Shown: positions 32,500 through 35,489 of the stretch, one piece after another
Position numbering within the stretch: position 1 is the first letter of the stretch
Layout of the letters: every line of letters starts with the position of its first letter
Assembly: GCF_018524365.1 (NCBI RefSeq)
Contig: NZ_JAEKFT010000008.1
Location: 1-64,000 of the forward strand
Direction of reading: 5' to 3'
Length of the DNA stretch: 64,000 nucleotides
From: Denitromonas iodatirespirans
Lineage (GTDB): Bacteria > Pseudomonadota > Gammaproteobacteria > Burkholderiales > Rhodocyclaceae
The notes under the pieces: model-generated
Database searches by the model: none
The model's input: only the letters and a program-made list of their open reading frames with translations
Told to the model about the DNA's origin: nothing
Translations under genes and position numbers: made by a program

Positions 32500-33192
32500 A
32501 TGAAAACCATCGGCCTGCTCGGCGGCATGAGCTGGGAATCGACCGTGAGCTACTACCAGGCGATCAACCGCGGCGTGAACGCAGCGCTGGGTGGCCTGCA
32601 CTCGGCACGGGTGATGCTCGCCAGCGTCGATTTCGGCCCCATCGAAGCGGCTCAGCATCGCGGCGACTGGGACGCCACGGCGCAGATGCTCACCGAGGCG
32701 GGCCGGTCTGTCGAAGCGGGCGGGGCGGATTTTCTGCTCATCTGCACCAACACCATGCACAAGGTGGCCCCGCAAATCGAGGCGGCGCTGTCGATTCCGC
32801 TGCTGCATATCGCCGATGCCACCGGCGAGGTCTTGCAGGCGGACGGCGTGCGCCGTGTCGGCCTGCTCGGCACCCGCTTCACCATGGCGCAGGACTTCTA
32901 CACCGGCCGGCTGCGCGAGCGCTTCGGGCTGGATGTGCGGGTGCCCGAGGCGGAGGCGCAGGATGTCGTGCACCGCATCATCTATGACGAGCTGTGCCAT
33001 GGCGTGGTGTCGGACGCCTCGCGGGCGCGCTATCTCGAGATCATCGCGGGCCTGCACGCGCAAGGCGCCGAGGCGGTGATTCTCGGCTGCACCGAGATCG
33101 CCCTGCTGGTGCAGCCGGCCCACACCAGCGTGCCGCTCTACGACACCACCGCCCTCCATGCCGCGGCAGCCGTCAAGTACGCTCTGAGTTGA
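32500..33192 (+). CDS. Aspartate/glutamate racemase family protein
   Basis: A 230-residue cofactor-independent racemase of the Asp/Glu/hydantoin family. N-terminal MKTIGLLGGMSWEST and the two catalytic cysteine regions, ICTNTMHK and ILGCTEIALL, are intact. The YgeA-like aspartate racemase group is the closest by motif. It is 14 bases after thpR, with AGGAGG just before the ATG. Confidence 0.9.
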   Translation: MKTIGLLGGMSWESTVSYYQAINRGVNAALGGLHSARVMLASVDFGPIEAAQHRGDWDATAQMLTEAGRSVEAGGADFLLICTNTMHKVAPQIEAALSIPLLHIADATGEVLQADGVRRVGLLGTRFTMAQDFYTGRLRERFGLDVRVPEAEAQDVVHRIIYDELCHGVVSDASRARYLEIIAGLHAQGAEAVILGCTEIALLVQPAHTSVPLYDTTALHAAAAVKYALS

Positions 33193-33195
33193 AAG

Positions 33196-33657
33196 CTACT
33201 TGCGCCGCAGCCGCAGATCGGTGACGAAATCCTGCGGCGGGCCGATGTCGATCTTGGCGAAGTCGGGGTGGCGCGGGTTGATCAGGTAGTTGCGTTCCGC
33301 CGGGATCACCGCGCTGGGCACCGCCAGTACCGCGCTGCTGCCGCGCGCGATCCAGTCGCTGCCCAGCGCCTGCAGATGGGCGCGGTTGGCCGGATCGTTC
33401 CACTGCTCGGGCAACTCGGCGAGTTCGATCTGCTCGACCTTGAAGCGCTTCGGCAAGGTCGCCGGGATCATCACATAGCGGGCGCGCAGCGGCTCATCCT
33501 GCACCAGGATCTCAAGCATCGCCAACGACTGGCTGGCCGCGGTATAGACCATGGGCACGCCCTTGCGATTCCAGCGCCCGCCGTAAAGGCGGGCGCCTTC
33601 GCCGCTAAAGGCGGTGTCGGCGAAACGGGCGGTGACGAGGCGCCAGAGGGTGGTCAC
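33196..33657 (-). CDS. RES-domain toxin of a split RES/Xre toxin-antitoxin pair
   Basis: A 153-residue RES-family protein; characterised members degrade NAD+. The core GARLYGGRWNRKGVPMVYTA and LAMLEILVQ carry the family's conserved Arg, Tyr and Glu. It starts at GTG. Its Xre/DUF2384 antitoxin lies upstream on the same strand, but instead of the usual few bases there are 618 between them, filled by an inverted-repeat element. The start codon lies inside an 8-base direct repeat (33650-33657) that flanks the element, so the insertion kept the start but replaced everything before it. No good ribosome binding site remains. The toxin may therefore be poorly expressed or uncoupled from its antitoxin. 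Confidence 0.85.
   Translation of the reverse strand: MTTLWRLVTARFADTAFSGEGARLYGGRWNRKGVPMVYTAASQSLAMLEILVQDEPLRARYVMIPATLPKRFKVEQIELAELPEQWNDPANRAHLQALGSDWIARGSSAVLAVPSAVIPAERNYLINPRHPDFAKIDIGPPQDFVTDLRLRRK
33650..33657. repeat. Left copy of 8-bp flanking direct repeat
   Basis: GTGGTCAC at 33650-33657 recurs at 34234-34241. The two copies bracket the inverted-repeat element and look like a target-site duplication. On the minus strand this copy begins the toxin coding sequence. Confidence 0.6.
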
Positions 33658-34233
33658 TGGTTTGCGCCTCGCCGGCGAGGCGTGTGCGATTCGGGTGAGG
33701 GACGTTGGCCGGGTCTCGCCCCGGCGGGCGAATTACTTCTTTGTCGCGACAAAGAAGTAATCAAGAAAACGCCCCCGACTGTGCCGCCGGCTTCGCCGGT
33801 GCCCTCTCTACGCCCGGCGCCGGCGGGTCGTGTCGCAAACTCGCCCTTCGGGCTCAAACAGCGACACGACAATTCCCGCCGTCGCCGTTCTCCGTTCGGC
33901 GGCACAGAAGGGGAAGGGCATGCGGGCTCGGCTTCGCCATTGCCCGCGCAAGAACCGAATGCCGTGCCTATGGGCACCCCCTCCCCCTCTGTCGTGCCGA
34001 GCGCAGCAAGTGCGGGGCGGAAAAAGCGGCTTCGCTGTCTAAGCCCGCAGGGCGAGTTTGCGAAGTCCGCCCGCCCCGTGCTTGCGGAGGGAGGGAAGCC
34101 CGAAGGGCCACGACAGTGGGGCGTGCTTCTTTGCCTAGCTTTCTTGCACGAGCAAGAAAGTAGGTCGCCCGCCGGGGCGAGACCCGGCCAACGGTCGCCA
34201 TCGAAAAACCCCGCTGGCCGAAGTGCAAAAAAA
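33658..34233. mobile_element. MITE-like inverted-repeat element, non-coding
   Basis: About 576 bases with no convincing gene. A perfect 29-bp inverted repeat sits at 33703-33731 and 34165-34193. Imperfect symmetry extends outward to the ends and inward over about 130 bases. Just inside the left arm is a 28-base perfect palindrome (33733-33760), and just inside the right arm a CTTTCTTGC/GCAAGAAAG hairpin (about 34138-34164). Several smaller GC-rich hairpins lie between. It is flanked by an 8-base direct repeat. It resembles a family of large non-coding repeats seen in GC-rich proteobacteria. Mobilisation by a transposase elsewhere is inference. Confidence 0.65.
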
Positions 34234-34241
34234 GTGGTCAC
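34234..34241. repeat. Right copy of 8-bp flanking direct repeat
   Basis: GTGGTCAC matches 33650-33657. Joining the two copies would place the RES start codon 34 bases after the antitoxin stop, a normal spacing for such an operon. Confidence 0.6.
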
Positions 34242-34275
34242 GGTACCCGTAGAGCGGATCACGCCAGCCATCCGC

Positions 34276-34731
34276 TCAACCATACACCCCGTGTTCGATC
34301 CGCCCCAGGGTCTCCATCACCGTCTGGGCGCCGATGTCGGTGTCGAGCAGCGACAGCGGTGTGTCGCCGCCGAGGGCGGCGTTGGGGGATTTGAGCCAGT
34401 CGAGGGCGGGGGCGAGCTCTTCGAAGACTTCTTCGGCGCGCTCGACGACGCGTGCCAGACGCACGACCTTGGCGGACTCTTCGCTGCTCAGCGTGCCTTC
34501 CTTCTTGCGGCGGGCCAGGGTGCGTTCGGGGATGGCGAGTGCCGAGGCCAGTTCGTTGTGGCTGAGGCGCAGGGCCTTGGCGAGCGCGTCGATGGTGGCC
34601 GAGGAGATGCCCTGGCGGATCAGGTCCACCCATTCCAGCGGCGTGCGCGGCTGGTGGTGCAGGACTTTGCGGCCGCCCAGCAGACGGTCTGCAGAAAAGG
34701 CGGAGGTGGGCAGTGCGCCGACGGTGCTCAT
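34276..34731 (-). CDS. Xre/DUF2384 (ParS-like) antitoxin of the RES pair
   Basis: A 151-residue antitoxin. The N-terminal helix-turn-helix-like region (DALAKALRLSHNELASALAI, then PERTLARRKKEGTLS) is followed by a C-terminal DUF2384 domain (WLKSPNAALGGDTPLSLLDT, ending GAQTVMETLGRIEHGVYG), the usual pairing for RES toxins. An AGGAG lies 6 bases before the ATG. It should bind its own promoter and neutralise the toxin. The toxin gene is displaced downstream by the inserted element. Confidence 0.88.
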   Translation of the reverse strand: MSTVGALPTSAFSADRLLGGRKVLHHQPRTPLEWVDLIRQGISSATIDALAKALRLSHNELASALAIPERTLARRKKEGTLSSEESAKVVRLARVVERAEEVFEELAPALDWLKSPNAALGGDTPLSLLDTDIGAQTVMETLGRIEHGVYG

Positions 34732-34823
34732 GTGGACTCCTGGAGTGCCATATGGCACAGAGTCTAGACACTTTTGGCAGATGATGCCACCGTCGCCGGC
34801 AGGGCCGGGGTATTGGCCGCTCG

Positions 34824-34848
34824 CAAAAAGGGCGCCCTCCGGCGCCCC
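34824..34848 (-). terminator. Rho-independent terminator after the host-attachment gene
   Basis: On the minus strand a GC-rich stem (GGGCGCC pairing with GGCGCCC around a short loop) is followed by five T. It lies 26 bases after the stop of the host-attachment gene. Confidence 0.75.
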
Positions 34849-34873
34849 GTTTGTGGGTGGATGCGTCAGTCGA

Positions 34874-35308
34874 TCAGAGGCAGATGCTGCCGCCCAGGCG
34901 GACGGCGAGGTCCGGTTCGGCGGTTTTGGTGTAGTCCTTCTCGACCCGGTCGGTGACCAGCTGGGCGGTCGGGCCGTCCATGACGGCATTGAGCATGCCC
35001 ATGAAGGCGGGTGGAGCGACCAGGATGGCACGGCCGAAGGCGTTGTTGTTGCGTCCCTGATAGAACTCCTGGGCAAGTTCCTGGGCAAAGGCGCGTGCGG
35101 CCTGGGTCTTCGGCGGCGTGTGAGATTCGTAGCCGCTGCCGGGCGACGACTGGATGCTTCCGGGTCGATCGGTGACGAGGTCCTTGTTCTTCTGTCGGCT
35201 TTCCGGGTGGATCAACTCCTTGACCAGCTTGAGTCCTTTGTTCGGCCCATAGTTGGCATAGAGTTTGGCAAGGCTGGCGTTGGCAACCAGGATCCATGTG
35301 ATAGCCAT
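34874..35308 (-). CDS. Host attachment family protein (PF10116)
   Basis: A 144-residue protein starting MAITWILVANASLAKLY, then RAFAQELAQEFYQGR and ILVAPPAFMGMLNAVMD, all typical of the family first linked to attachment of Agrobacterium to plant cells. Members occur widely in free-living bacteria and resemble release-factor-like domains; the actual function is not settled. It is monocistronic with its own terminator. Confidence 0.85.
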   Translation of the reverse strand: MAITWILVANASLAKLYANYGPNKGLKLVKELIHPESRQKNKDLVTDRPGSIQSSPGSGYESHTPPKTQAARAFAQELAQEFYQGRNNNAFGRAILVAPPAFMGMLNAVMDGPTAQLVTDRVEKDYTKTAEPDLAVRLGGSICL

Positions 35309-35489
35309 AGATGTTCCTCCGAAAGAGTGGGTGATCAGCTGTGTACGTCCGATCCGTCCAGACGGCGCACGACAGCGCTTCTAGCGTAGCCAGTTGCCCT
35401 CGACACTTCAAAACGCCGCTTGTCGGACCAGCGCGCTGCGGGGCCGTCCATGCCCGGGAAACCCGCGCCATGGGCCGTTCGGCTGTCGT

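Follow-up and report, generated by a model that had tools for sequence, protein, structure and literature searches.

A MITE within an operon is an already known kind of arrangement, with Chunjie of Geobacter uraniireducens as the precedent. A review describes this MITE as 178-235 bp long, with many copies of varying size and conserved direct repeats (PMC10969869). One copy lies in an operon for phosphate uptake, one of two, which the review says it disrupts; the title of the original report, as cited there, reads "without disturbing the operon structure" (PMC10969869). The same review mentions two MITEs that flank a class 1 integron in Acinetobacter (PMC10969869). Among RES toxins, that of the NatR-NatT pair is described as depleting NAD and NADP, the pair binding its own promoter (PMC11535050).

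Here we analyse a RES/Xre pair in a stretch of 64,000 nt from Denitromonas iodatirespirans (hereafter, the window). Like NatR-NatT, as that pair is described, it combines a RES toxin with an Xre/MbcA/ParS antitoxin whose gene lies upstream. The element between the two genes resembles Chunjie as the review presents it, being short, bounded by inverted repeats, present in many copies and, in one of them, inside an operon. Unlike Chunjie (178-235 bp, conserved direct repeats), it measures 491 bp, direct repeats were not found, and it stands inside a toxin-antitoxin pair in a position common to six genomes. The family also recalls the MITE-flanked integrons of Acinetobacter, with short inverted-repeat elements on either side of variable cargo. 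It differs from them in that the cargo, mostly one or two genes, lies between the two arms of a single element, and in that attC-like sites were noticed, by eye, in a single locus (L162). Among the papers listed in a literature search, judged by titles and abstract openings, none concerned a repeat element inside a RES/Xre operon or such arms with exchangeable cargo.

The RES/Xre pair and the element within it

The features of the locus are the following.

33196..33657, strand -: RES toxin, 153 aa, GTG start (PF08808, E 4.8e-32; NF049844, 169.6 bits against a cut-off of 110)
34276..34731, strand -: Xre/MbcA/ParS antitoxin, 151 aa (PF09722 and PF20432; NF049845, 131.7 bits against a cut-off of 90)
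34745..34758: GTGCCATATGGCAC palindrome in the antitoxin upstream region, candidate operator (upstream sequences compared by eye)
34252..34277, strand -: hairpin with an 8-bp stem directly 3' of the antitoxin stop, paired in the computed RNA fold
33703..34193: element core, repeat to repeat, 491 bp, near-palindromic and two-armed (own-genome matches, RNA fold)
33703..33731, strand +: terminal inverted repeat, toxin side, 29 bp, perfect
34165..34193, strand -: terminal inverted repeat, antitoxin side, 29 bp, perfect
33732..33761: perfect palindrome of 2 x 15 nt within the toxin-side arm (inverted-repeat search)
33658..33702: probable toxin-side outer extension of the element, today the toxin leader (family outer-end matrix score 8.6)
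34194..34275: outer segment on the antitoxin side, which the unsplit relatives lack (weak family signal, matrix score 1.1)
33650..33657, strand +: GTGGTCAC, covering the first toxin codons and no target duplication
34234..34241, strand +: second GTGGTCAC, a chance match missing from the other split genomes

The antitoxin comes first, on the same strand as the toxin, and both proteins exceed the curated NCBIfam cut-offs. The two genes, their common strand, their coordinates and the gap of 618 nt, as given in the preliminary description of this DNA, were all reproduced, and Pfam and NCBIfam agree on the assignment. With this gap the pair departs from the close adjacency of RES/Xre type II toxin-antitoxin loci, which unsplit relatives display with 13 and 46 nt. 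A GCCANATGGCA palindrome was seen by eye upstream of the antitoxin in all eight genomes that have the pair; this fits one autoregulated promoter, and the palindrome may be its operator. The hairpin after the antitoxin is perfect in G005 too and imperfect in the others (by eye). A second, diverged RES/Xre pair (30-39% identity) lies near the first in L034:4260-5077 and L055:1477-2319.

The perfect 29-bp inverted repeat noticed in the preliminary description was found at 33703-33731 and 34165-34193. It sits within 41-bp arms with 90% complementarity, and shuffles give an expectation of 0.00 matches for a 25-nt piece of it. The genome was searched with positions 33658-34233 (576 nt, octamers excluded), and scoring of 40 of the 83 candidates gave at least 52 matches. 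Two other full-length copies (95 and 91% identical) span positions 33-536 and 46-536 of the 576-nt query; among the matches listed, the remaining copies start at position 18 or later and end at 548 or earlier. Because the copies stop at the repeats, we take 33703-34193 as the family core, with the octamers outside it.

Beyond the repeat, the outer ends of the family share a degenerate extension, closing in something like TGCCTTCGGCGGAGGTTC. A gapless matrix built from 65 flanks at other sites (the same 65 that had entered an earlier nhmmer profile) was used to score the flanks of the element at the toxin-antitoxin site (site A) in the window genome, G000, and in G002, G004, G005 and G008. In G000 the toxin-side flank scores 8.6, which 0.05% of random window 22-mers attain; the score is 11.6-13.3 in G002, G004 and G008 and 2.8 in G005 (1.3% of random). 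The antitoxin-side scores are weak (1.1-2.3, reached by 1.6-2.9% of random 22-mers; 1.1 and 2.9% in G000). With the nhmmer profile no site A sequence reached 0 bits; the search is uninformative because shuffles alone passed this mark (best 2.5). Since the toxin-side flank fits the family matrix, we hold with moderate confidence that the outer end of the element abuts the toxin start and supplies the toxin leader; we are less sure of its antitoxin-side border. The start codon is GTG in G000 and ATG in the five other split genomes.

The preliminary description had taken two flanking copies of GTGGTCAC as the borders of the element, which amounts to a model of insertion in G000 with an 8-bp target duplication. 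The octamer is indeed present at both places, and the 34-nt gap that remains after removal of the element and one copy is arithmetically correct. As borders the copies do not hold, standing 40-45 nt outside the inverted repeat, where the family core ends. The window contains three copies of the octamer against a shuffle mean of 1.95, and 17.7% of 20,000 random flank pairs of equal size share an 8-mer direct repeat. The five other split genomes hold the element at the same site, and in none of them does GTGACCAC occur in the first 120 nt after the antitoxin; orthologous operons without this junction had been named in advance as evidence against the model. Because none of the five relatives has the octamer and 17.7% of random pairs match, the pair of copies is best taken as chance. 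The core borders, the orthologs and the random rate together rule out the target duplication, and we give the model as a whole hardly any credence. No target site duplication was recognised by eye at site A or at a second site (B), the borders being blurred by divergence.

The RNA of the spacer (33640-34278) folds at a computed -396 kcal/mol (z -15.2, none of 20 shuffles as good). A conserved hairpin masking the ribosome site of the toxin was considered and dropped because the leader folds are too different between genomes. Rfam gave three matches in 33000-35400, each below its gathering score. An open frame of 209 aa running through the element (33654-34283, strand -) has no Pfam match and is probably spurious.

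Occupied and empty sites in relatives

A search for related antitoxins yielded 29 loci, and for each we measured how far the aligned toxin begins from the end of the aligned antitoxin. This distance is at most 49 nt in 25 loci and 321-2009 nt in the other four (L030-L033), all of which carry the same repeats. Eight of ten genomes of the genus have the pair, six with the element at site A and two with normal gaps (six of the eight are the same records as L030-L033, L046 and L048). Unlike typical RES/Xre loci, the split sub-clade has gaps of 318-2003 nt: 618 nt in G000, 816 nt in both G008 and G009, 646 nt in G002 (measured to the aligned toxin start, one codon past its ATG), 2003 nt in G004 and 318 nt in G005. 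The unsplit gaps are 46 nt in G007 and 13 nt in G006. These are the empty sites that the preliminary description had proposed to look for by alignment to related operons, and a repeat element is what splits the pair. The flanks of site A are homologous among the split relatives, with the same repeats present. In G004 (L032) one repeat end is lost, and IS3-like genes were seen by eye between antitoxin and toxin.

At site B, another insertion of G000, every one of the six split genomes has the element; in G006 and G007 the site is empty. At site C, both ends are present in G000, G002, G008 and G009, partial matches occur in G004 and G005, and G006 and G007 are empty by coordinates. The occupied and empty states of sites A, B and C show that the element was at site A before the six split genomes diverged, and its insertion there is ancestral to the sub-clade. 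The earlier claim of an insertion exactly at the toxin start thus survives in part: the end of the element appears to reach the start codon and form the leader. The insertion, shared by six genomes, is no private, recent event.

The element family, its arms and their cargo

A 28-nt end pattern (at most three mismatches) matches in seven of the ten genus genomes, with no match in G003, G006 and G007 and none for a reversed control; G000 has 23 repeat ends. In a family-level sample of 150 genomes (G000, G002 and G005 included), 27 genomes from 16 of 68 genera have an end match, many of them variants with two or three mismatches. MITEs have terminal inverted repeats, a length under about 600 bp and no transposase gene inside. 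The window element has this size and structure (491-bp core, terminal inverted repeats, no Pfam match inside), and its family has many dispersed copies; it lacks a target site duplication at site A. No transposase with matching ends was recognised in the cargo segments looked at, and on this ground the large repeat-bounded segments were set aside as candidates for the autonomous transposon. IS3-like frames noticed by eye in L105 and L032 may be later insertions.

We compared 30 arms from 15 elements at sites A, B and C, leaving out site A of G004 (one end lost) and site C of G004 and G005 (partial matches). The best match is the ortholog for 15 arms, another arm in the same genome for eight and neither for seven. 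Mean identity is 0.81 between orthologous arms, 0.79 within a genome and 0.75 in the remaining cases; by median, orthologous arms (0.87) stand clearly above those of the same genome (0.78). The toxin-side arm of site A in G000 is 98% identical to site C of the same genome and 89% to its best ortholog, and both site A arms of G008 and G009 are mutual best matches (98-99%). Purely orthologous inheritance does not fit the 15 arms whose best match is not orthologous. The comparison supports a history in which some arms were inherited and others overwritten from other copies, and such a mix implies that part of the sequence at the site is younger than the site itself.

At sites D (L106, L109, L111, L114, L164) and E (L108, L110, L115, L116, L162), each of five genomes has 0.8-2.0 kb between the arms, and this sequence is unrelated from one genome to the next. 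The proteins between them include HNH, TIR and nuclease-like types and others of no recognised type. The left flank of site D matches in 10 of 10 pairs, and the right flank of G004 in one of its four pairs. Both flanks of site E match in 10 of 10 pairs; where G002 or G004 is paired with one of the other three genomes (six pairs), the left match extends over 37-63 nt only. Between the arms, the genomes have 24-320 nt in common at D and 0-188 nt at E, most of it repeat edge.

PADLOC was run on 20 cargo frames from 18 segments, picked as the longest or most gene-like, with the frames of L105, L162 and L163 omitted. At 1e-3, seven frames match and 13 do not: HNH in L114 and L115 (weak), TIR in L110 and L207, a nuclease-like part of L111, a methyltransferase in L107 and a cyclase in L214. 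None of ten control proteins matches (seven near the window site, three beside other elements); because this set is small, we claim no enrichment value. Pfam adds Mrr (L209) and T5orf172/MUG113 (L211). In L207-L214, from other genera of the family, variant ends (mostly TTGCCGGG...) bound TIR, Mrr, T5orf172, cyclase and unknown frames. In L107 (G005), L105 (G009) and L163 (G004), the arms enclose a gene that we take to be NnrU-like together with neighbours that vary, an N6/N4 DNA methylase in L107 being one of them.

The stretch L162:2237-3758 resembles integron cassettes with attC-like sites (by eye), and the TACAACACGTT junction of L162 is common to L106/L155 and L114. At site A no attC site was noticed. 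An integron integrase scores above the cut-off in seven of the ten genus genomes; no element arms were found in the 12 integrase loci fetched (L176-L187). One match below the cut-off, directly beside an element site (G009:C4:904227-904394, with counterparts in G002, G004, G005 and G008), is probably a housekeeping tyrosine recombinase.

Because the arms enclose cargo at other sites, the window element looks like a family member without cargo. It might then be kept because its arms dock exchangeable cargo through homologous recombination, any effect on the toxin being incidental. This explanation has in its favour sites D and E, where the same arms enclose unrelated cargo at orthologous positions, the signs of arm exchange and the IS3-type-looking genes seen by eye inside the G004 element at site A. 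We find it rather doubtful: no gene was recognised by eye in the site A interiors of G000, G002, G005 and G008, half of the 30 arms still match their own ortholog best, and exchange is read from the sequences. A wider version, put forward tentatively and with well under even belief, covers Denitromonas and other genera of the family. Here the homogenised arms would be the borders of chromosomal docks at fixed sites 3' of genes, with exchangeable genes, often nuclease-, TIR-, methyltransferase- or cyclase-like, swapped by recombination through the arms. The toxin-antitoxin spacer would be such a dock without cargo, and would at the same time set the ratio of toxin to antitoxin.

Maintenance and probable expression of the toxin

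All six split genomes retain an open toxin frame. Among them dN/dS for this gene is 0.09-0.16 at dS 0.3-0.8, pairwise values that a recent loss in G000 alone would escape; it is 0.17-0.24 between split and unsplit genomes and 0.33 between the two unsplit ones, G006 and G007. Antitoxin dN/dS among split genomes is 0.07-0.34, the highest values all involving G000 (0.25-0.34). These ratios show the toxin to be under purifying selection.

The same element family lies between hypD and hypE in G009, G005, G002, G008 and G004, with gaps of 646-841 nt (loci L198-L202) against 27 nt in G006, the unsplit counterpart (L203). No hypD was found in the fetched stretch of G000, G001 and G003, and hypE has no match in G007. 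All nine genomes with a hypE match have it as an open frame, and in the other four split genomes it is 93-96% identical to that of G009; the gene behind the element has evidently been kept.

The preliminary description had allowed for silencing, which would leave the pair a decaying remnant. The 618-nt spacer, its strong fold with T-tailed hairpins and the GTG in place of ATG in G000 would fit such decay. Purifying selection on a toxin open in six of six split genomes, together with the retention of hypE behind the same element, makes it very unlikely.

The element could also bring its own promoter, in which case transcription of the toxin would not depend on the antitoxin promoter. To place the family relative to genes, we counted 37 full elements, orthologous copies included, with single-end elements and repeated 60-nt flanks left out. 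On heuristic gene calls, 31 could be classified: 18 lie between convergent genes, 13 between codirectional genes and none between divergent genes (7, 5 and 0 of 12 in G009 alone). For comparison, 7 of the 55 gene pairs in the window are divergent and hold 30% of the intergenic bases, and the 7 convergent pairs hold 6%. An own promoter gains from the element-derived toxin leader and from the 44-154 nt that separate the 13 codirectional copies from the next gene start. It loses from the absence of copies between divergent genes and, weakly, from a scan of 33100-35000 with no sigma-70-like site (0.1 expected), a consensus scan that misses other promoter types. We consider it unlikely.

Our preferred reading, to which we give a probability of roughly 0.55, is an ancestral MITE-like insertion that became a tolerated read-through spacer and lowers the toxin relative to the antitoxin. 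A two-armed element, with no transposase recognised inside, entered the operon in an ancestor common to six of the ten genus genomes sampled, landing between the antitoxin stop and the start of the toxin. Its outer end appears to have turned into the toxin leader, and it probably stayed at site A while its arms were overwritten from other copies. The long gaps beside the short unsplit ones, the like pattern at sites B and C, the toxin dN/dS, the hypD-hypE case, the missing sigma-70 consensus, the strong fold and the placement of the family all speak for this reading. The toxin is presumably still made, since it is under purifying selection, and the most likely source is read-through from the antitoxin promoter across the spacer. 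As the spacer is predicted to fold into one long hairpin, translational coupling would be broken and the toxin would be lower than the antitoxin. Terminator-like sites number six on both strands of 33100-35000, against 1.5 expected, and four of them lie in the gap on the toxin strand (34028-34045, 34165-34180, 34208-34224, 34239-34251), which speaks against free read-through. The weakly family-like antitoxin-side border, the low leader score of G005 and the raised antitoxin ratios of G000 also count against the reading.

The genus thus offers a natural series of spacers, of 13, 46, 318, 618, 646, 816 and 2003 nt, that bears on the question of whether tight coupling is a requirement of toxin-antitoxin pairs. 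If the arms do act as docks, they would be a further way, beside integrons and phage/satellite hotspots, to swap single defence-like genes at fixed sites.
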